The position numbers and the translations under genes are program-made. A stretch of 36,873 nucleotides of DNA from a virus, in IMG/VR virus record IMGVR_UViG_3300010413_000132, positions 1 to 36,873 of that record. One strand, written 5' to 3'. Under the pieces are notes generated by a model. It was not told the origin of the DNA, did not search any database, and saw nothing but the letters and a program-made list of their open reading frames with translations. Below are positions 17,749-27,452 of this stretch, in pieces (within the stretch, counting starts at the first letter, position 1; each line of letters starts with the position of its first letter).

Positions 17749-19803
17749 CTAGTCAGGGGCCGTCACATCGAATTCCTGCTCGAACGCGGCGACGACGTCG
17801 ATCTGCCGCCAACCCCAGACCTGCCGGCCGCCCGGCTCCGGGCGGAACCGCCGCGTCTTCACGGCCACCAGGTCGCGCAGCGCCTGCTCCGTCATCGCGC
17901 CGTACCGGTCCGGGTTCACGATCCGCAGGGACTCCAGCACGAACGCCACCTGGACCCCGTCGTCGGACGGTCCGTAGCAGCCCAACACGTCGTCCAGGAC
18001 CTGGCCACGGGACACCGCCTCAGCCACCGGGACCGGCGGCTCGACACCGGCCAAGCGGGCCACGATCGCCTCCGGCGTCGCCTCGGCCCACTGGACCAGG
18101 ACCGAGTCGCCCTCAGCGACCAGCCACGACAGGCCACGATCCGCCTGGGACAACTCCGCCGGGGCCACCCCCCGGGAGTGCTTCCCGTCACCGAGGACCG
18201 AGTTCCCGTCCCGCCAGTCCGCCACCGAGAAGCACGCCCGCGTCCCGCACGATTTCAGCAGGTCAGCGGGGATCGTCACCGGGCTGGGCCGCTGCGTCGC
18301 CAGGATCAGCATCACGCCGTACCCAGGGCCCTTCCGGGCCACCCGGCCCGACAGCTTCCCGATCTCCGGGCCGAGCTCCGGGTGTTCCATCGCCTCAGCC
18401 ACCTCGTCCGCCACCAGGGCGACGAGCTGCTGGCCGGGCGTGGCGTGGATCTCCGGCGTGATCCGGCTCCACCCGTTCGCCTTGTACTCGGTGGCCCGCC
18501 GCTTCCAGGTGGCGTCGAGCATCCGGAGCCGGGCCAGGATCGCCTCGGCGGCCTCGTCGTCGTCGGCCGTCGTGACCGAGCTGACCGCCTTGCCCTCGAG
18601 GGGGGCGCCGTCCGAGCCGCCCTTGGCCCACACGCAGTGGACCTCGGCGCCGCCGGCGATGAGGTCGGCGGCCAACTGGCGAACAGCGCCGGTCTTCCCC
18701 GTCCCGGACTGGCCGCCGATCACGACGGCCCGGTCCGGGAGTTGCAGGGTGACGGGGCGGCCATCCAACGTCTGGCCGATCGGGACGGCCCACAGGTCGA
18801 CGGGGGTGGCCGGGTCGGCCAGTGGCCACGGCACGGTGGCCGGTTCAGCGTCGAGGATCGTGACCCGGAGCCGGCCGGCCGAGTGGCCACGGCCAGCGTG
18901 GCCGAGGCGGAGCCGGTCGAGGGCGACGTCCATGGCCGAGCTGACCCCGGCGGCCACCTTGGCCACGTCGTCGGCGGCCACCCCTCCCGGGAGCTCGAGG
19001 ACCCCGGTCTCGCCGTGGCCGGTGTGGTGTGGCCGCTCCGCCCACCTGGCCTCATGACCGGCGGCCAGGGCCCTGGCCACGGCGGGGATCTTGGTGGCCA
19101 CGGCGGCCATGACGGCGGCGGCCACCAGGCGGCCACCCGTGGCCGGGTCGTCGTCGACCTCGGTGGCCACCTGCGGCCGGAGGCTGGCCACCAGGCCCAT
19201 GGCCACGGCCAGACGCCCGGCCGGCCAACCGGCGGCCACGGCCACGATGGCCACGACGGCGATGGCCAGCCACCGGCCACCGGCCACGAGCCACCACCCG
19301 GCGGCCACCACGGCGGCCACCGTGGCCACGGCCGTGAGGAACAGGGCGGCCACGATCACCGCGGTGTTGGCCACGAACGCGGTTCCGGCCACGGCGGCGG
19401 CCACCCCGTCGTCACCGGCCACGGTGGCGGTGGCCATGGCCGCTCCGGCCACGACGGCCAGGAGGACCACGGCGGCCACGGTGAGCCACCCGGTGGCGCC
19501 GGCCACGGTGGCCACGACCGAGACGGCCAGGGCGACGACGGCGGCAGCGGCGGCCCGTTCCTCGACGGGGGTGGCGAGTTCGGCCATCCGGGCCCGGCGG
19601 GCGGCGTGGAGGTCGCCGAGCTCCTGGCCGGTGGTCCCGGCGAGCTGGGCGGCGGCGATGTCCCGGGTCCAGGCCCGGCCGACGTCGCGGGCGTCGTGGT
19701 CGAGGCACCACCATGGCCACCATGCTCCGGCGGCTGCTGCGGGGCGCCAGGCGTGGCGGGCGGTGGCCCACCACCATGCGAGGAGGCGACGGATGCGGGT
19801 CAC
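17749..19803 (-). CDS. FtsK/TraB-like DNA translocase
   Basis: A 684-residue membrane-bound motor. After a Trp-rich N-terminus come several membrane helices (about 84-130, 137-165 and 168-205), then a linker and the RecA-like motor. GGQSGTGKT (363-371) is Walker A, VALVADEVAE (461-470) is Walker B, and LATQRPS (501-507) is the FtsK/SpoIIIE/TraB signature. The last ~85 residues look like a winged-helix DNA-binding domain, as in FtsK gamma or TraB. Actinomycete TraB proteins move double-stranded plasmid DNA between cells (family knowledge). GTG 19803 overlaps the upstream stop. A long open frame on the other strand is a codon shadow. Confidence 0.9.
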   Translation of the reverse strand: MTRIRRLLAWWWATARHAWRPAAAAGAWWPWWCLDHDARDVGRAWTRDIAAAQLAGTTGQELGDLHAARRARMAELATPVEERAAAAAVVALAVSVVATVAGATGWLTVAAVVLLAVVAGAAMATATVAGDDGVAAAVAGTAFVANTAVIVAALFLTAVATVAAVVAAGWWLVAGGRWLAIAVVAIVAVAAGWPAGRLAVAMGLVASLRPQVATEVDDDPATGGRLVAAAVMAAVATKIPAVARALAAGHEARWAERPHHTGHGETGVLELPGGVAADDVAKVAAGVSSAMDVALDRLRLGHAGRGHSAGRLRVTILDAEPATVPWPLADPATPVDLWAVPIGQTLDGRPVTLQLPDRAVVIGGQSGTGKTGAVRQLAADLIAGGAEVHCVWAKGGSDGAPLEGKAVSSVTTADDDEAAEAILARLRMLDATWKRRATEYKANGWSRITPEIHATPGQQLVALVADEVAEAMEHPELGPEIGKLSGRVARKGPGYGVMLILATQRPSPVTIPADLLKSCGTRACFSVADWRDGNSVLGDGKHSRGVAPAELSQADRGLSWLVAEGDSVLVQWAEATPEAIVARLAGVEPPVPVAEAVSRGQVLDDVLGCYGPSDDGVQVAFVLESLRIVNPDRYGAMTEQALRDLVAVKTRRFRPEPGGRQVWGWRQIDVVAAFEQEFDVTAPD

Positions 19804-20980: not shown

Positions 20981-21270
20981 CACCCGAACACCGCCGAGAT
21001 CAGTGCGTTCCCGGTGGTCATGACCCACGTGATGATGACCCACAGGGCACCACCGAGCAGGACTCCGATGATCAACGGCCGCTTCATCACGGCCCCGATC
21101 GCGCCCCGGGGGATCTCCCCGGTGGCACCGCCGATCAGGAGCAGGATGAACCCGATCACGATGACGGCGTAGACACCCCACCTGGCGTAGTACTCGATGG
21201 TGCTCTTCGCCTCGCCGAGCTTGCTGTCGATGGCGGTGGACTGTGCGATGAAGGCGATCAGCGGAGCCAC
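20980..21270 (-). CDS. Small two-helix membrane protein (pilin-like layout)
   Basis: A 96-residue protein. GTG 21270 is chosen because GGAAGGAGG lies 8 bases upstream; a TTG 18 bases earlier would place that site inside the gene. An amphipathic start (IAFIAQSTAIDSKLGEAKSTIEYYARW) is followed by helix 1 (about 30-47), a short loop GATGEIPRG, and helix 2 (about 62-82). Size and two-helix layout resemble TrbC/VirB2-type proteins, but no signal peptide cleavage site is clear, so this is only a comparison. It ends inside the DUF2637-like gene start. Confidence 0.68.
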   Translation of the reverse strand: MAPLIAFIAQSTAIDSKLGEAKSTIEYYARWGVYAVIVIGFILLLIGGATGEIPRGAIGAVMKRPLIIGVLLGGALWVIITWVMTTGNALISAVFG

Positions 21271-21602
21271 GATCCGCCCTCCTTCCAATCACCGGACCGG
21301 CCCCACCGGGGGGTGGACTGGGCGACCTGGTCCCGTGCGGCGCCCCACCCACGGGCAGCGCCTCGCACGGCGGCCGAGCGGGCAGCGGTCTGGGCCTGGG
21401 CCCGTGTCGGGGCCTGCTTGCGGGCCTCGGTGGCCACATCGGCCCCGAACCCCTTGGCGGCACCCCAGCCCCGGGAGGCTCCCCGGGACGCCGTGCGGGT
21501 GGCGGTCCCAGCCCACCCGGTGCGGCCCTGGGGGCGGCGGGCCGGGGGCCGGCTCGAGGGGGCGCCGTTGGGCGCCTCGGTCTTCTTGCCTCGGCCCCAC
21601 AT
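21258..21602 (-). CDS. Basic Ala/Arg/Gly-rich protein
   Basis: A 114-residue protein starting at ATG 21602, which overlaps the previous stop (TGATG). It is low in complexity and strongly basic, with repeating RG-WGAA units (for example SRGWGAAKGFGAD and ARGWGAARDQVAQ). This suggests nucleic-acid or membrane-surface binding by an extended basic helix. No known domain. It overlaps the next gene by 13 bases, carrying that gene's ribosome-binding site within its own last codons. Confidence 0.65.
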   Translation of the reverse strand: MWGRGKKTEAPNGAPSSRPPARRPQGRTGWAGTATRTASRGASRGWGAAKGFGADVATEARKQAPTRAQAQTAARSAAVRGAARGWGAARDQVAQSTPRWGRSGDWKEGGSWLR

Positions 21603-21841
21603 CAGGCGTTCACCAGCTTCACGGCCTGGGCCCGGGAGTAGTAGAAGCTCTCGTCGCCGTACTGGGCGTGGTGGACGTAGATGATGCAGTGCACACCGTC
21701 GCCGCAGTACTCGACGCCGGTCACCCGGAACTCGGTGCCCTCGGCGTAGTCCTCGCATCCGGCGTGCTCGAAGACGTCGTCGATCCCGAGGTCCTCGGCG
21801 GCCACCTCGTCGCCGGTCGTGCTGTTCGATCCCCATCTCAT
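21602..21841 (-). CDS. Small acidic protein, first gene of the minus-strand module
   Basis: A 79-residue protein starting at ATG 21841, with GAGGTGA about 6 bases upstream. It is acidic, with three cysteines (GCEDYAEG, EYCGDGVHC) and aromatic strands near the end (YYSRAQAVKLV). The pattern suggests a small beta barrel. It is the promoter-proximal gene of the operon reading toward the translocase. Function unknown. Confidence 0.65.
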   Translation of the reverse strand: MRWGSNSTTGDEVAAEDLGIDDVFEHAGCEDYAEGTEFRVTGVEYCGDGVHCIIYVHHAQYGDESFYYSRAQAVKLVNA

Positions 21842-21876
21842 GGTCTGTCACCTCGCTGGTCGGCGGTAGGGGGAAC

Positions 21877-21950
21877 GGGGCCGGCCCCGGTGGTGGAGGG
21901 GGTCCACCTGGGGCCGGCCCCGGCGTGCGGTCCGGTCCGCCGTCCGGACC
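21877..21950. repeat. GC-rich dyad cluster between divergent genes
   Basis: Two copies of the self-complementary 14-mer GGGGCCGGCCCCGG occur at 21877-21890 and 21910-21923; they can pair with each other across TGGA (21894-21897) / TCCA (21903-21906). A second inverted repeat GGTCCGG (21929-21935) / CCGGACC (21944-21950) follows. The block lies upstream of both the minus-strand membrane operon and the leaderless plus-strand gene at 21997. It could insulate the two transcripts or bind a regulator. Confidence 0.65.
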
Positions 21951-21961
21951 AGCTCCGCCCC

Positions 21962-22010
21962 TTGATCGTAAACCCGATCCAGTTGATAATCAACACATGT
22001 CGTACGATCA
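21962..22010 (+). promoter_or_regulatory. Leaderless promoter inside nested inverted repeats
   Basis: TTGATC (21962-21967), 17 bases, then GATAAT (21985-21990), with 6 bases to ATG 21997, so transcription should start at or next to the start codon. The -10 box lies in the palindrome TTGATAATCAA (21983-21993). An outer inverted repeat TGATCGTA (21963-21970) / TACGATCA (22003-22010) surrounds it. The layout suggests a tightly repressed, operator-controlled start. Confidence 0.7.
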
Positions 22011-22383
22011 TCTACCGGACCAGGACGGAGGCCGTACCCTCGTGCTCGTGACCAGGCCCCGACAGGACGTCCCCCCCGACCTCGCCCGCCGTCTCGCCGA
22101 GGCCCGCGACCAAGGCGCCACCGACCACGCCGACTACGCCGGCCACGCCCCCACAGACCCCCTCGAACGGGTCGCCTGGTCCACCCCCCTCGGCATGGAC
22201 TCCGACCTCCACCTCGACGCCGTCACCGAATGCCGGGCACGCCTCATCCCCTGGCGGTGGATCTCCGTCGCCGCCGGCAACCCCGACGACGACCGGGTCA
22301 CCGACCTCCACCGCCGGGCACTGGAACGGGCACTCGACCGGCAGGCCGACCGCCGCCCCCCGCAACCTGACCGTAACAGGTAG
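21997..22383 (+). CDS. Protein of unknown function, leaderless
   Basis: A 128-residue protein starting MSYDHLPDQDGG. It is rich in Asp, Arg and His; the middle reads HADYAGHAPTDPLERVAW and the end is a basic helix RRALERALDRQADRR. No ribosome-binding site precedes ATG 21997, which instead sits 6 bases after a -10 box. It is a lone plus-strand gene between the minus-strand membrane operon and the minus-strand integrase, so it may be expressed from the prophage. No domain recognised. A hairpin follows at 22424. Confidence 0.62.
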   Translation: MSYDHLPDQDGGRTLVLVTRPRQDVPPDLARRLAEARDQGATDHADYAGHAPTDPLERVAWSTPLGMDSDLHLDAVTECRARLIPWRWISVAAGNPDDDRVTDLHRRALERALDRQADRRPPQPDRNR

Positions 22384-22423
22384 AATCACCCACGGCCCGT
22401 CCGCCAAGACCAGGGCCACACAT

Positions 22424-22452
22424 GAGGCCCCGGGAGTCGCCCCCGGGGCCTC
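22424..22452. terminator. Hairpin terminator between convergent genes
   Basis: A perfect 11-base stem, GAGGCCCCGGG (22424-22434) with CCCGGGGCCTC (22442-22452), and a 7-base loop. It lies between the end of the plus-strand gene at 22383 and the end of the integrase gene at 22543 (minus). No T-run is present. The rest of 22384-22542 shows G- and C-runs but no gene. Confidence 0.72.
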
Positions 22453-22542
22453 GCTGCGTCACCGCCGTAGGCTCACCGGGGAGGGGAGGGGACCACGGCT
22501 AGGCATCCCAACGCTGGCCTGAGGGCCCCCTCCCCCACCGAG

Positions 22543-23496
22543 TCACCCACGATCCAGATACGTCGCATCGAGTACGTAGTCGTGTAGATCGATCGCGGCA
22601 GCGTTCAGATACACCTCGGTAGAGCTGATCGACTCGTGGCCCAGGAGGCGCTGCAGGATCGGCATCGGGGTCCCCGCCAGAGCGTGCTCCAAGGCGAACG
22701 TGTGCCGCCACTGATGCGACGTCACATGCGCCCCCACCAGCCACGACGCCTCCAGCATCACCCGGGCCGCCGTCCCCGGCGTCACGTTGCCCTTCGCCCC
22801 CGGGCCCGGGCGCTTCGACGCCCACATCGGCCCCGCGTACCGGCCCTTGCACCACGCCTCCAGACCGGCGGCGGCCTCGGCCGGGACCGGTACCGTCCGG
22901 TCCTTCGCGCCCTTCCCCGTCACCGACAGCGATCCCTGACCCCGCTTCCCCTGGCCCCGCTTCCACTGCTCCCGGTGGAGCCCGGCGATCTCCGACACCC
23001 GCAGCCCGCAATGCAGGCCGAGCAGGATCATCGTCCTCGCCCGGTCCGGAGCCACGGCCAAGATGTCGGCCGCCAGCTCCGGCGTAACCGCCCTCGGGTG
23101 CCTGGTCCGCCGCCGGGCCCGGCCGATCAACGGCCACGGGTCGTGGTCGGTGAGACCGCTGGCGACGGCCCACCGCCAGAACGTCCGGTAGCTCGAGCAG
23201 TAGGCGTTGCGGGACTCGGGGGCCATGTGACCGAGGTCGATCGCGATCCAGGCGTCGAGCCTCGGCGTGGTGAACGCGGGGAGCGGGTCGGTCGGGAACC
23301 GCTTCGCGAAACACCGTATGTGCTTGTCAACGGAGACGCGGGTGAGGTGTGCGATGTCGTCTTTCATGGCCCGCCTGGTGTTCCAGGTCAGCATGAGGTC
23401 GACGACAGGTGTGCTGTCTGACTGCGCAACGGTCGACATGTCGCCCTTCGATGTGTCGGCCAGGCCACGCGTTGGGATGTGCCCAATTCGTACCAT
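22543..23496 (-). CDS. int: Tyrosine integrase
   Basis: A 317-residue tyrosine recombinase that would insert and excise the phage genome. An N-terminal SAM-like DNA-binding part covers about 30-120. The catalytic set is complete: R166 (GLRVSEI), K195 (TGKGAKDR), H261 and R264 (SHQWRH), H287 (LLGHES) and nucleophile Y296 (EVYLN). The ATG at 23496 is the longest start; ATG 23439 has a GAAGGG upstream and may be the real one. It lies directly downstream of the repressor on the same strand, an order known from phages with integration-dependent immunity. Confidence 0.93.
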   Translation of the reverse strand: MVRIGHIPTRGLADTSKGDMSTVAQSDSTPVVDLMLTWNTRRAMKDDIAHLTRVSVDKHIRCFAKRFPTDPLPAFTTPRLDAWIAIDLGHMAPESRNAYCSSYRTFWRWAVASGLTDHDPWPLIGRARRRTRHPRAVTPELAADILAVAPDRARTMILLGLHCGLRVSEIAGLHREQWKRGQGKRGQGSLSVTGKGAKDRTVPVPAEAAAGLEAWCKGRYAGPMWASKRPGPGAKGNVTPGTAARVMLEASWLVGAHVTSHQWRHTFALEHALAGTPMPILQRLLGHESISSTEVYLNAAAIDLHDYVLDATYLDRG

Positions 23497-23500
23497 AATG

Positions 23501-23540
23501 ATCTGAACGAATTCAACTAAAAGTCATGCAGCGTTCAGAT
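23501..23540. promoter_or_regulatory. Inverted repeat between repressor and integrase
   Basis: ATCTGAACG (23501-23509) and CGTTCAGAT (23532-23540) form a perfect 9-base inverted repeat around an AT-richer centre. It covers the repressor stop codon and ends 4 bases from the integrase ATG. It could be a repressor operator for the integrase promoter, an integrase arm or core-flanking site, or an mRNA hairpin. Confidence 0.7.
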
Positions 23541-23886
23541 GTAGGCAAGTACTTCGAGACTCTCCCAGTCGCCTAGTCAGGTAGCTGTAGACGTCGGCCT
23601 CGGAGCCTACGAATACGTCCTCGGGGATCGATTCTTTCCGGCCCGGTATTTCCTCTCCGAGCAGGTCACGGACGGCGGCAGCCTTGAACTTGTCCATGCG
23701 GGACACGTTGTTGACCCACGCCGAGACGGCGGAGCGGGAGACCCCGACACGCAGGGCGAACGATGCCGGGTTGTGTCGAGCGGCGGTGATGAGGAGGAAC
23801 AGGGCACGACCCGGGTTGGGTGTGAACTCCTCGGGTTCCTCGGTCGGGGCGGCGGCCTCGATGGGGGCAGAGGTGGGGCTGGCCAT
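23524..23886 (-). CDS. Immunity repressor (helix-turn-helix)
   Basis: A 120-residue protein. After a Pro/Glu-rich N-terminus, residues about 27-78 form a helical DNA-binding domain with the helix-turn-helix ASFALRVGVSRSAVSAWVNN (41-60). The C-terminal ~35 residues are loosely structured and end LHLNAA; a terminal Ala-Ala after hydrophobic residues is like an ssrA-type degradation signal. ATG 23886 lies 6 bases from a TAGGGT -10 box and has no ribosome-binding site, so the message is probably leaderless. It is divergent from a Cro-like gene, with operators between. Confidence 0.8.
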   Translation of the reverse strand: MASPTSAPIEAAAPTEEPEEFTPNPGRALFLLITAARHNPASFALRVGVSRSAVSAWVNNVSRMDKFKAAAVRDLLGEEIPGRKESIPEDVFVGSEADVYSYLTRRLGESRSTCLHLNAA

Positions 23887-23892
23887 ATCCAG

Positions 23893-23921
23893 ACCCTAGC
23901 CCATTGTCCAGGATCTGAGAA
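23893..23921 (-). promoter_or_regulatory. Repressor promoter (leaderless)
   Basis: Read on the minus strand: TTCTCA (23921-23916), a 17-base spacer, TAGGGT (23898-23893), then 6 bases to the repressor ATG at 23886. The left operator arm (23904-23920) overlaps the -35 box and most of the spacer, so the repressor can control its own gene. Confidence 0.6.
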
Positions 23922-23966
23922 TAGTCCCTAAGGTGAACTACCCAACAAATCTCAGACTCTGGACAA
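23904..23966. promoter_or_regulatory. Divergent operator pair of the lysogeny switch
   Basis: A 17-base inverted repeat, TTGTCCAGGATCTGAGA (23904-23920) and TCTCAGACTCTGGACAA (23950-23966), matching at 15 of 17 positions. Each arm overlaps the -35 region of one of two divergent leaderless promoters. This is the expected layout of a genetic switch where one regulator binds both arms. Confidence 0.78.
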
Positions 23967-23988
23967 AGTTCGGAGCAGGGAGTATGTT
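23960..23988 (+). promoter_or_regulatory. Promoter of the Cro-like gene (leaderless)
   Basis: TGGACA (23960-23965), 17 bases, TATGTT (23983-23988), then 7 bases to ATG 23996. The -35 box lies in the right operator arm. The message would begin at or just before the ATG, matching the lack of a ribosome-binding site. Confidence 0.68.
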
Positions 23989-23995
23989 CAGAGCC

Positions 23996-24238
23996 ATGAC
24001 TCCTCTCCGATCAGCGATCGAGGGGCTGCTCACTGCAAGAGGGGCGACCGAGACACTCGACAGTCTGGTCACCCGTCTACGCAGCGACGGCGCCAACTGG
24101 GACCAGGTTGTGGAGGCCATCGAGGCCGCCGCTGGTACCGCGCCGTCCCGGCAGACCCTCATTGATTGGTTCCCGACCCTGAACCGCCCACCCGGCCGAC
24201 GACCCTCCGTCGACACCGACGTCGAGGCCGCCGCCTAG
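23996..24238 (+). CDS. Cro-like DNA-binding protein
   Basis: An 80-residue protein, MTPLRSAIEGLL..., with a helix-turn-helix-like core at about 22-60 (LDSLVTRLRSDGANWDQVVEAIEAA, then RQTLIDWF). This pattern (long helix, NW turn, then TLxxWF) is common in small early regulators of actinophages. ATG 23996 is preferred over ATG 23984 because the promoter's expected start falls next to it. As the first gene of the rightward transcript, opposite the repressor, it would favour lytic growth. Confidence 0.72.
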   Translation: MTPLRSAIEGLLTARGATETLDSLVTRLRSDGANWDQVVEAIEAAAGTAPSRQTLIDWFPTLNRPPGRRPSVDTDVEAAA

Positions 24239-24243
24239 TTCGC

Positions 24244-24280
24244 CGGGTCGGCCCTGGTTACAGCGGACCGGGCCGACCCG
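24244..24280. terminator. Hairpin just after the Cro-like gene
   Basis: A perfect 11-base inverted repeat, CGGGTCGGCCC (24244-24254) with GGGCCGACCCG (24270-24280), starting 5 bases after the Cro-like stop. It has a 15-base loop and no T-run. It may end or attenuate the rightward transcript before the early operon. Confidence 0.65.
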
Positions 24281-24288
24281 CACACCGT

Positions 24289-24353
24289 CCCCGGCGCCCA
24301 CCCGCAGCCCCACCGACAAGGGGCCGGGTGCCCCGCCCGCACCGGCGCCGGGG
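24289..24353. promoter_or_regulatory. Large structured leader before the early operon
   Basis: An outer perfect stem CCCCGGCGCC (24289-24298) with GGCGCCGGGG (24344-24353) encloses an inner stem, CACCCG..GCCCC (24299-24311) with GGGGCCGGGTG (24320-24330), with a 2-base bulge and the loop ACCGACAA. It lies directly after the hairpin at 24244-24280 and before the ribosome-binding site of the 24399 gene. This looks like a folded mRNA or DNA element, possibly an antitermination or regulator site. Confidence 0.6.
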
Positions 24354-24398
24354 CAACAACTCCACCAACCCACGACCCCTCAAGGAGGGCTCTTCGCC

Positions 24399-24869
24399 AT
24401 GCCTCTGAACACGACCGAGACCACCACGACCACCGACACCAACCTCAAGGCCACGCTCCCCCCGGGACCGTGGCAGGACGAACCCGACAAGGCCCTGTGG
24501 AACGACGAGACCACCGGCCTCCACTGCCTCATCATCCGGCACCCCTCGGGCCACCTGTGCGGCTACGTCGGCATCGACACCGCCCACCCGTGGCACGGCG
24601 ACGCCTACAACGACCACTACGAGATCACGGTCCACGGCGGCCTGACCTACGCCGACAGCAGGGACGACGACGAGATCTGGTGGTTCGGCTTCGACTGCGC
24701 CCACCTCGGCGACCTGACCCCTCGGCACTTCCATGCCGACCCGGTCACCGAGGCCGCCATCGCCCTGTGTGGAGACGGAATCGGCGGCGGCAACACCTAC
24801 CGCGACTTCGGCTACGTCACCGCAGAGGTCACCCGCCTCGCCGAGCAGCTCGCGGCGGTGACGGCGTGA
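24399..24869 (+). CDS. Conserved-type early protein of unknown function
   Basis: A 156-residue protein with a strong ribosome-binding site (AAGGAGGG, 10 bases before ATG). After a Thr-rich start it shows PGPWQDEPDKALW, CLIIRHPSGHLCGYVGID, WFGFDCAHLGDL (about 93-104), and near the end NTYRDFGYVTAEVTRLAEQLA. The WFGFDCAH-GD plus TYRD-YV-E pattern recurs in phage proteins of unknown role. It is the first gene of the early operon and overlaps the next by 4 bases. Confidence 0.75.
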   Translation: MPLNTTETTTTTDTNLKATLPPGPWQDEPDKALWNDETTGLHCLIIRHPSGHLCGYVGIDTAHPWHGDAYNDHYEITVHGGLTYADSRDDDEIWWFGFDCAHLGDLTPRHFHADPVTEAAIALCGDGIGGGNTYRDFGYVTAEVTRLAEQLAAVTA

Positions 24870-25471
24870 CCATCAGCCTGAACACCGACCAGATCCTCAC
24901 CCGCCTCGACCACGGCAACCAATGGACCCAAGGCACCTGGGGCGACCCCGCCGACACCGAGGCACCCACCTGCCTCCACGGCGCCATCCGGGCCTGCCAA
25001 CCCACCCCCGGCGACGCCTACCTCATCCGACAGGTCGCCGAACGCCAGGGCTGGGGCACCACCTTCAACGACGCCGTCGGTACCGAGTGGCACGACATCG
25101 AAGTAGCGCTCCTCACCCACCGCGAGGTCACCGACGCCGACCTCGCTGACACGTTCGGCCCGACCTGGGAGATCACGGTCGACACGGTCCGCACCATCGC
25201 CGCCGCCACCCCCACCCAGATCCAGGCACTAGCCGCCGCCAGGGCCGCCGCCTGGGCCGCCGCCAGGGACGCCGCCTGGGCCGCCGCCAGGGACGCCGCC
25301 TGGGACGCCGCCAGGGACGCCGCCTGGGACGCCACCAATGCCGGCGTCGTGATCGATCTCGTCGGGCAGCACGGACTCCCCGCCGACCACATCCGCACCA
25401 TCGCCGGCCCGTGGTGCGCCGTGTTCCCCGACTCCGCCCTCGCCCACGCCGTCACCGCACTGGAGGACTGA
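24866..25471 (+). CDS. Protein with Ala/Trp 8-residue helical repeats
   Basis: A 201-residue protein starting at GTG 24866 (GTGA overlap). Residues 1-115 are a mixed globular part with a CLHGAIRACQPTPGDAYLIR segment. Residues about 123-154 are four units of AAARDAAW type, giving a helix with Trp at every eighth position. Residues 155-201 return to ordinary sequence (VVIDLVGQHGLPADHIRTIAGPW). Similar Ala/Trp/Arg repeats occur in phage and bacterial proteins of unknown role. A structural or interaction helix is likely. Confidence 0.7.
   Translation: MTISLNTDQILTRLDHGNQWTQGTWGDPADTEAPTCLHGAIRACQPTPGDAYLIRQVAERQGWGTTFNDAVGTEWHDIEVALLTHREVTDADLADTFGPTWEITVDTVRTIAAATPTQIQALAAARAAAWAAARDAAWAAARDAAWDAARDAAWDATNAGVVIDLVGQHGLPADHIRTIAGPWCAVFPDSALAHAVTALED
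25232..25327 (+). repeat. Four 24-base tandem repeats inside a gene
   Basis: Units at 25232-25255, 25256-25279, 25280-25303 and 25304-25327, each close to GCCGCCGCCAGGGACGCCGC plus CTGG. Units 2 and 3 are identical; units 1 and 4 differ by one base from these. They encode the 8-residue repeats of the host gene. Such exact repeats expand or shrink readily by slippage. Confidence 0.9.
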
Positions 25472-25473
25472 CC

Positions 25474-25827
25474 ATGACCGAACACACACCCAGCGAACGG
25501 CTCATCGCCGCCATCAACGCCCCAGCCACCTACCCCGTCGACACCTCCAGGCCCTACGGATATTGGGCCTACACCATCGGCGCCACCGCCAAGACCCACC
25601 AGGTCGGGGACCTCGTCGACTGCGTCGACGCCAGGGACGACTACGAGTTCACCGGCAGGATCGTCCAGTTCACCACCGACGACATCGGCCCCCGCGCCGT
25701 CGTCGTCCTCCACTCCGACACCACCGGGTTCGACCACGCGGCGCTCCGCTCCGCCGCCGGGGTCCGCTGCCCCATGACCGCCACCCTCGCCGTTGTCCTC
25801 AACCTCCGGGACGGGGGTGCCCAGTGA
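25474..25827 (+). CDS. Small SH3-like protein of unknown function
   Basis: A 117-residue protein (MTEHTPSERLIAAINAPATY...). The middle reads HQVGDLVDCVDARDDYEFTGRI and then AVVVLHSDTTGF, the VGD-V-x4-D...GRIV pattern of small SH3-like or KOW-like beta barrels. It lies in the early operon, with GGAGGACTG just upstream as ribosome-binding site, and ends overlapping the next gene. Role unknown. Confidence 0.68.
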   Translation: MTEHTPSERLIAAINAPATYPVDTSRPYGYWAYTIGATAKTHQVGDLVDCVDARDDYEFTGRIVQFTTDDIGPRAVVVLHSDTTGFDHAALRSAAGVRCPMTATLAVVLNLRDGGAQ

Positions 25828-26108
25828 CCCGGTTCCAGCTCACCATCTCCACCACCGTCGAACTCGACGTCCCCGACGACACCCTCGGCCACATCGACGA
25901 CATCGATGCCCACCTCACCCACCTCGTCGCCCTCGGCCACGGCACCGAGATCCGCAGCGGGAAGGCCGTCAGTGCCCACGTCCCCTACTACGACACCGAG
26001 AACCCCCGGTGGACGCAGATCAGCGTCGACGCCGGGACCGGTGTCCTGTGGGAGGACGTGCGGGACGCCCTGTGGCCCGCAGAGCACGCCGGAGGTGCAG
26101 CAGCGTGA
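25824..26108 (+). CDS. Small early protein, unknown
   Basis: A 94-residue protein from GTG 25824 (GTGA overlap). It has a strand-rich start (FQLTISTTVELDVP), an acidic helix with HIDDIDAHLTHLVALGHG, and ends WEDVRDALWPAEHAGGAAA. No catalytic motif seen. It overlaps the exonuclease gene by 4 bases. Confidence 0.65.
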   Translation: MTRFQLTISTTVELDVPDDTLGHIDDIDAHLTHLVALGHGTEIRSGKAVSAHVPYYDTENPRWTQISVDAGTGVLWEDVRDALWPAEHAGGAAA

Positions 26109-26692
26109 GCAAGCTCGTTTTCCTCGACACCGAGACCACCTCCCTCGACGCCGACACCGGCGAGATCTGGGAGGTCGGCGCCATCGTCCGTTTCGACGGG
26201 GCGCACATCGCCGAGTACCACTGGTTCCTTCCGGTCAGCCTGGAGCACGCCAGCTCGGTGTCGCTCGACATCGGCCGATTCCACTCCCGGCACCCGCAGG
26301 GCAACGACAGCCCCGACGCCAAGGTGCTCCGACTCGACGCTTTCGCCCAGGAGTTCGCCAGCCTCACCCACGGCGCCCACCTCGCTGGCAACGTCGTCAG
26401 CTTCGACGAGGAACGGCTCCGGAAGCTCCTCCGCAGGCACGGCCACATGCCATCCTGGCACTACCACCTCGTCGACGTCGAGACCCTGGCCGCCGGGTTC
26501 CTGGCCGGTCAGAGCGGGATGGCCAGAGACCTGCCGTCCGAGTGCGACAAGTGCTCCCCGCCGTGGAACAGCCGGGAGCTGTCCGAGGCGCTCGGTGTTG
26601 AACCTCCGTCCGACGAGGAGCGGCACACCGCCCTCGGCGACGCCCGGTGGGCGATGCGGATGTACGACGCCGTGATGGGCGGTGAGTCGTGA
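26105..26692 (+). CDS. DEDDh 3'-5' exonuclease
   Basis: A 195-residue exonuclease of the DnaQ/RNase T type. Exo I is LDTETTSLD (D8, E10), Exo II is GNVVSFDEE (D101), and Exo III is HTALGDA (H174, D179), so the whole DEDDh set is kept. A CDKC pair at 147-150 may bind zinc. It would trim single-stranded DNA ends or support replication and recombination. Start GTG 26105 overlaps the previous stop. Confidence 0.9.
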   Translation: MSKLVFLDTETTSLDADTGEIWEVGAIVRFDGAHIAEYHWFLPVSLEHASSVSLDIGRFHSRHPQGNDSPDAKVLRLDAFAQEFASLTHGAHLAGNVVSFDEERLRKLLRRHGHMPSWHYHLVDVETLAAGFLAGQSGMARDLPSECDKCSPPWNSRELSEALGVEPPSDEERHTALGDARWAMRMYDAVMGGES

Positions 26693-26973
26693 TCGCCCTC
26701 CAGCCCATCACCCTCACCTTCGCCGTCACCTGGCTCGCCGTCATCGCCATCCTCGGCGCCGCCGCATGGCACTGGTGGGACGCCATCACCGGCCCCGTCG
26801 CCCGGTTCCTGTTCGGCGACCCCGGCGAGCCGCTGGGGTGGGACGTGGAGCTCCACATCGTCGAGCTCCACCGGGCCGCCCGGACCCCCGACGAGATCGC
26901 CGAACGGCTCGGTCTCACCTCGGACGCCGTCGAGTGGATCATCGGCCGCTACGACGACGGAGACGCAGCATGA
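26689..26973 (+). CDS. Membrane-anchored helix-turn-helix protein
   Basis: A 94-residue protein from GTG 26689. A membrane helix (about 9-30, FAVTWLAVIAILGAAAWHWW) is followed by a short linker and a helix-turn-helix TPDEIAERLGLTSDAVEWIIGR (about 66-87). A DNA-binding domain tied to the membrane is unusual for such a small protein. It is in the middle of the early operon, overlapping both neighbours by 4 bases. Confidence 0.68.
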   Translation: MIALQPITLTFAVTWLAVIAILGAAAWHWWDAITGPVARFLFGDPGEPLGWDVELHIVELHRAARTPDEIAERLGLTSDAVEWIIGRYDDGDAA

Positions 26974-27452
26974 GCGACCTGCCGTTCGACGAAAACGAGA
27001 TCGTCACGATCTCCCAACTTCTCCTCGCCGCCGTCGGCGCCAGCCGTGCCCGAGACGAGGTCCGCTACAACGCCCTCACCGCCGAGGCGCTCGACCGGAT
27101 GGAAGCCCTCGACCCCGGCATGCACCGGGTGATGTGGCACATCAACCTCACCCTCATCGGTTCCGCCTGCCACATCGGCATGCAGGGCGACGACACCGAC
27201 TGGCGCCTCATCGCCACCGACATGGAGACCGGCGACGTCGTCAACCCCGACGACCGCCCCGAAGCCCGGCCCGCCGTGACCGCCATGCGCCTCATGGCCA
27301 CCTACAAGAACGGCGACATCGACACGTGCTGCGCCCTGCTCCAGGCGGCGATGGTCGACGAGGCCGCTGCCAGTGAGATCACCTGGGCGCTGGCCCGGGT
27401 CGTGCACCTGCTCGCCAAGGACGCCGGCCTCATCGAAGGAGCTACGGCATGA
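26970..27452 (+). CDS. Early protein, helical, unknown function
   Basis: A 160-residue, mainly helical and acidic protein. It shows DENEIVTISQLLLAAVGASRARDEV at the start and repeated helices with YKNGDIDTCCALLQAAMVDEAAAS near 117-140. No recognisable catalytic motif. ATG 26970 overlaps the previous stop. Confidence 0.68.
   Translation: MSDLPFDENEIVTISQLLLAAVGASRARDEVRYNALTAEALDRMEALDPGMHRVMWHINLTLIGSACHIGMQGDDTDWRLIATDMETGDVVNPDDRPEARPAVTAMRLMATYKNGDIDTCCALLQAAMVDEAAASEITWALARVVHLLAKDAGLIEGATA

Follow-up and report, generated by a model that had tools for sequence, protein, structure and literature searches.

Divergent, leaderless cI and cro genes are already known from PY54, a telomere phage of Yersinia, whose cI and cro mRNAs were reported to start at the AUG by RACE (PMC4488713). 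In its immB region, the repressor gene and the Cro-like gene diverge, as described there, around a single operator that is bound by Cro; by our measure they are 104 bp apart. In mycobacteriophage BPs, according to the account in PMC4557955, integration removes a tag from the repressor and thereby stabilises it. Its 32-33-34 cassette consists of integrase, repressor and a divergent Cro-like gene, PR and Prep diverge with operators in the gap, attP sits within the repressor gene, and the 12-bp palindromic operator has a second half site that varies. The BPs repressor binds five genome regions, and the binding sites of phi-C31 and L5 are scattered over the genome (PMC4557955). Nearly a quarter of mycobacterial transcripts are leaderless in the survey of PMC4633059, so leaderless starts are ordinary in that group. 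PY54 and BPs are the nearest cases that the literature on leaderless phage switches and integration-dependent immunity offered us, and nearer ones may be in print.

The window analysed here is the whole of a 36,873-base virus record with a G+C content of about 71%. Like immB, it holds a divergent pair of putative regulator genes about 100 bp apart with a candidate operator between them, and it shares with BPs, by the published description, the gene order and, as predicted features here, the divergent promoters and the position of the operators in the gap. It differs from PY54 in that leaderless starts are predicted here and measured there (PMC4488713), and in having a significant 17-nt inverted pair, which the PY54 gap lacks. 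It differs from BPs as portrayed in PMC4557955 in that its operator is one pair of long inverted arms, and in that no attP was found in its repressor gene.

Organisation of the lysogeny module

A terminase, an integrase and an exonuclease were recognised in the window by profile search. We infer that the phage is a temperate siphovirus and that its host is a high-GC, probably actinobacterial, organism. The lysogeny module spans 22543-24238, and its gene order is read directly from the sequence: a leftward integrase, a leftward repressor-like gene and a divergent gene of 80 aa.

22543-23496, minus strand: tyrosine integrase gene, 317 aa (PF00589, E 5.5e-17; phrog_1 integrase, E 1.6e-34)
23524-23886, minus strand: repressor-like gene, 120 aa, C-terminus ...HLNAA (weak HTH_3 match, E 0.0036, under the Pfam cut-off, and position between integrase and divergent gene)
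23996-24238, plus strand: small divergent gene encoding 80 aa; its likeness to Cro or Xis is one of position alone

Both genes flanking the gap are putative regulators. The 80-aa product matched no family in Pfam-type or phrog profile searches, and its structure model, a four-helix fold built from a single sequence (mean pLDDT 79.9), had no PDB match at E<=0.001; the model of the repressor-like protein (mean pLDDT 54.1) was too poor for a structure search. Homologues of either regulator were found neither in the viral contigs searched nor, with tblastn at E<=1, among 50,697 phage records, and the repressor had no match in 13 actinobacterial genomes, a blank that is uninformative as none of them was known beforehand to match. 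As a result, the arms, starts and promoters discussed below stand without comparative support. The DNA of positions 22400-24400 matched no phage record. The terminase retrieved no relative as a query, and with the integrase, the exonuclease and the gene at 24399-24869 (phrog_2164) as baits the same sister record alone came up each time. Searched against genome contigs, the integrase found 35 loci, all distant. Its start at 23496 is without a detectable Shine-Dalgarno sequence.

A candidate paired operator in the intergenic gap

The gap between the two small genes (23887-23995) is 109 bp long with a G+C content of 50%. Inverted-pair and whole-record scans identified two candidate operator arms in it.

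23904-23920, minus strand: candidate left operator arm, TCTCAGATCCTGGACAA
23950-23966, plus strand: candidate right operator arm, TCTCAGACTCTGGACAA

The sequence-only reading of this DNA had described the arms as near-perfect inverted copies of 17 nt, and this is borne out: they are identical at 15 of 17 positions, and at 18 of 22 when lengthened to 22 nt. Neither value was reached in any of 400 dinucleotide shuffles of the gap, nor was the 17-nt value in a second run of 300. Each arm carries the core CAGNNNCTG; with starts at 23909 and 23953, the two cores are 44 bp apart, and their centres fall on 23913 and 23957. With up to three mismatches allowed, the arm pattern occurs in the whole 36.9-kb record at these two arms only (2 matches against 0.46 expected), so that there is no scatter of sites like that described for phi-C31 and L5 (PMC4557955). 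Since at least two matches were also present in 9 of 100 shuffled records, the rarity of the pattern alone is weak evidence, and the strong point of the predicted operator is instead the pairing of its arms. The exact operator pattern was absent from the viral contigs scanned. At the sequence level, the candidate arms overlap the predicted promoters, and the sequence lends good support to the prediction of a compact, divergent switch built on paired operator arms.

Promoters and start codons

The following elements were found on the side of the small gene by promoter scan and by Shine-Dalgarno scoring.

23960-23965, plus strand: right -35 box TGGACA, wholly inside the right arm
23972-23975, plus strand: GGAG, possible Shine-Dalgarno sequence of a rival start, ATG 23984
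23983-23988, plus strand: right -10 box TATGTT, ending 7 nt before ATG 23996

The right promoter, TGGACA-17-TATGTT (23960-23988), matches the consensus at 9 of 12 positions, and its placing puts the predicted +1 on or beside the A of ATG 23996. A match of at least 9/12 with its -10 box 5-9 nt before the start arose in 0.08% (0.0008) of 5000 shuffled gaps, and one at any place in the gap in 26 of 1000. On both strands of the whole record there are five matches of at least 9/12, against 1.0 expected, two of which have an ATG or GTG 5-9 nt downstream (23996 and 21997); 0.1 such abutting matches are expected, and no more than one was seen in any of 100 shuffled records. The two ATGs open frames of 80 and 128 codons. 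The second match, TTGATC-17-GATAAT (21962-21990), ends 6 nt before ATG 21997 of the 128-aa gene, which makes the latter another candidate leaderless gene, and the occurrence of two such matches suggests that leaderless starts are probably used elsewhere in the phage too. ATG 23984 is in frame with the gene at 23996, has a Shine-Dalgarno energy of -5.8 kcal/mol via GGAG and would offer the right gene a conventional, leadered start; ATG 23996 scores -5.9 kcal/mol, but its GGAG sits too far upstream. Leaderless transcription of the right gene is thus likely.

On the side of the repressor gene, two left promoters have to be considered.

23893-23898, minus strand: left -10 box TAGGGT of the sequence-only reading, weak, ending 6 nt before ATG 23886
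23916-23921, minus strand: left -35 box TTCTCA of the same reading (promoter scan), five of its six bases inside the left arm
23918-23923, minus strand: rival left -10 box TATTCT, with its -35 box TTGGGT at 23945-23940, giving a leader of about 25 nt

The distances of 6 nt (TAGGGT to 23886) and 7 nt (TATGTT to 23996) between -10 box and start codon are those originally noticed. Shuffling the gap 5000 times put a TANNNT motif 5-9 nt ahead of both starts in 0.3% of cases (4.6% and 6.5% for the single sides). The left promoter TTCTCA-17-TAGGGT scores 7/12, and this score or better at such a start spacing was found in 2.5% of shuffles. With spacers of 15-20, the minus-strand matches listed for 23840-24020 include seven of 7/12, one of the seven being TTGGGT-16-TATTCT (23945-23918), and 533 of 1000 shuffled gaps had a best score of at least 7 at some place. 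The left promoter is thus a weak prediction, inseparable from equally scored, leadered rivals. The repressor ATG at 23886 has a poor Shine-Dalgarno sequence (-3.8 kcal/mol); of 16 other starts in the record, chosen by hand, 13 have one of -6.0 kcal/mol or stronger, the weaker ones being 306, 10441 and 34928. The proposal that both promoters are leaderless therefore holds unequally: with the -10 box placed for a +1 at the start codon, the right side scores 9/12 and leaderless transcription there is likely, as the 0.08% of shuffles and the 0.1 expected matches indicate, whereas the left side scores 7/12 with rivals of the same score. Leaderless transcription of the left gene is only possible, and for this gene taken alone a leadered start appears about as likely.

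The -35 boxes were also said to lie one in each arm, which is accurate for the right box and true of five of six bases of the left. Numbered relative to the start codons, the right arm runs from -46 to -30 with its core at -39, and the left arm -34 to -18 with its core at -27, a comparison that presumes TTCTCA-17-TAGGGT to be the true left promoter. The right arm covers the -35 box and DNA upstream of it, and the left arm reaches over the greater part of the -35 box and 12 bases of the 17-nt spacer. Each arm thus overlaps a -35 box, but with a different half. The suggestion that one regulator sees both promoters alike finds no support in this geometry, as an arm offset of 12 bp is not expected to allow identical action on the two.

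Proposed switch and alternatives

We consider it probable that the gap is a lysis-lysogeny control region working as follows. The rightward promoter TGGACA-17-TATGTT would give a leaderless mRNA from ATG 23996, encoding the Cro- or Xis-like regulator and the early genes behind it, and a leftward promoter would express first the repressor gene, then that of the integrase. Probably as one dimer per arm, the repressor would fill two inverted operators 44-46 bp apart; this is about four helical turns, so both would face roughly the same side of the helix, where one tetramer could bridge them. Bound to the right arm, the repressor would hide the -35 box and turn the early promoter off. On the left arm, it would cover the -35 box and the spacer (or the start point, if TATTCT is used) and so limit its own synthesis. 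The binding protein, its oligomeric state, the repression and the start points in this scheme are predictions.

The main alternative is a leadered switch, in which the repressor would be transcribed from TTGGGT-16-TATTCT with TAGGGT acting as a weak Shine-Dalgarno sequence, the small gene would be translated from ATG 23984 with GGAG and transcribed from farther upstream, and the left operator would cover the start point. The TATTCT promoter does tie with the proposed left promoter at 7/12, and AGGG and GGAG stand at sensible distances from their ATGs. Yet the right gene is then left without a good upstream promoter (TTGTCC-19-TAAGGT reaches just 7/12), the 9/12 promoter would stand in the wrong place, even though chance seldom puts a match there, and the repressor Shine-Dalgarno sequence is weaker than those of the 13 hand-chosen starts that reach -6.0 kcal/mol; we regard this arrangement as unlikely. 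Far less likely still, the inverted arms would be an RNA hairpin, an attenuator or stability element, rather than an operator. The gap does fold at -32.1 kcal/mol (z -2.08, equalled by 8 of 200 shuffles), but folding is expected of any near-perfect inverted pair, no terminator-like site was found in 21800-24500, and both arms would be untranscribed under the favoured start points.

Comparison with related phages

The integrase matches 335 phage records, all at less than 60% identity, of which 271 are Mycobacterium or Gordonia phages by name. Nine comparators were taken from 20 listed among the 335: GRU3, EricDab, Delian, SallySpecial, YungMoney, Clown, QueenHazel, Emperor and DirtyBoi. The order integrase, repressor, divergent small gene recurs in all nine; in some, one or two additional genes precede or follow the repressor. 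Six of the divergent genes carry the annotation HTH protein or excise and three are hypothetical; the GRU3 repressor is annotated only as DNA-binding. TANNNT lies 5-9 nt before the annotated start on 5 of 18 sides, namely the repressor side in YungMoney, Emperor and DirtyBoi and the other side in SallySpecial and Emperor, compared with 4.6% and 6.5% per side for shuffles of the window's gap. The annotated starts are uncertain, and the repressor-side start of Emperor and Delian belongs to an extra gene. This test is a poor detector, missing both sides of PY54, which is reported to be leaderless (PMC4488713). A significant 17-nt inverted pair is present in only one comparator, DirtyBoi (16/17, 0 of 300 shuffles); in the other eight, 22 to 281 of 300 shuffles were as good. 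Genes 40-43 of this Gordonia phage resemble the window in gene order and in their near-perfect 17-nt arms 44 bp apart, and TANNNT lies 7 nt before the repressor start. The DirtyBoi arms differ from those of the window in sequence and are nearer the small regulator gene than the repressor, an extra gene lies between repressor and integrase, and a T-arm lies within the repressor gene.

Integration-dependent immunity

The proposed switch would be compatible with, and could be extended by, integration-dependent immunity, in which attP would lie in the 3' part of the repressor gene, the ...LNAA end would destabilise the long, phage-borne repressor, and integration would remove this tag. The repressor gene (23886-23524) is directly upstream of and co-directional with the integrase gene (23496-22543), the repressor ends in AA as in all nine comparators, and GRU3, a Gordonia phage described with this system in PMC5559632, has one of the related integrases. 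Against it, the window's integrase does not end in AA, as four of the five comparator integrases compared do. A full tRNA T-arm is the mark of a tRNA-type attP; one is present in eight of the nine comparator repressor genes (Clown being missed) and none in 22400-24400. Rfam at E<=10 gave no tRNA in 21900-24500, an uninformative result, as it gave none in three comparators either. Among 396 actinobacterial genomes, with usually two candidates scored per genome, no attB-like match rose above noise: with 23440-23720 as query, 136 had a match at E<=0.1, all short and scattered over the query, and the four attB candidates fetched hold no tRNA. Such immunity, perhaps through an attP of non-tRNA type, is accordingly a doubtful, though still arguable, addition.

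A 13-mer, GCAGCGTTCAGAT, is identical at 22598-22610 and 23528-23540, and the repressor HLNAA thus resembles YLNAA of the integrase. The idea that the repressor C-terminus derives from the end of an integrase (alignment of RRLGESRSTCLHLNAA with RLLGHESISSTEVYLNAA) was rejected, the whole-protein alignment being at chance (568 of 1000 shuffles); the score of the C-terminal part alone was attained in 9 of 1000 shuffles, under a lenient gap penalty and with the part picked after viewing. CGTTCAGAT occurs three times around the integrase (23501-23509, 23532-23540 and 22602-22610), two copies being inverted across the repressor stop codon. At up to one mismatch it has 7 matches against 4.25 expected, and the copies are possibly integrase or excisionase sites, or chance. 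We think it improbable that all of the following hold together: leaderless mRNAs for both regulators, one paired operator whose asymmetric arms (-39/-27) make one protein act differently on the two promoters, and an unstable repressor C-terminus, resembling ...YLNAA of the integrase, that is cut off when the phage integrates through a non-tRNA attP within the repressor gene.

A sister phage without the module

The sister record, the near-identical phage IMGVR_UViG_3300009506_000165 (G001; 39,711 bp), was compared with the window over 21000-27000. Identity is 99% up to 22850, 94% over 24228-26108 and 100% over 26677-27000, and 22851-24227 has no match in place. G001 keeps only the last 101 integrase residues by tblastn, and its integrase profile match is confined to positions 125-169. 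The repressor was not found in it by a search that had no positive control. The N-terminal part of the integrase, the repressor and the small gene have thus been lost together, which is likely a natural loss of lysogeny; the module appears to be gained and lost as one block, and lysogeny by this route is probably closed to G001. It has weak HTH_3 matches under the cut-off at 18990 and 35303, and possibly another regulator.

In place of the module, G001 carries roughly 1 kb of DNA that has no match in the window and contains rightward ORFs (G001:C1:21547-22598). A second stretch of the window, 26109-26676, is also without a match in G001, and a repetitive Ala/Trp/Arg-coding stretch at 25229-25489 (G001 locus L002, 1607-1948) differs in length between the sisters (86 and 113 aa, in one antisense frame).

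Significance

The locus is an ordinary temperate phage switch, of a kind already known, in compact form. It adds a repressor and regulator pair, for which no relatives were found, in a very short and sharply bounded control region, and G001, without the module, provides a natural null. Should both transcripts be leaderless and the repressor act on both arms, this high-GC phage would have a lysogeny switch that is very small and well defined, a possible orthogonal part for high-GC hosts.
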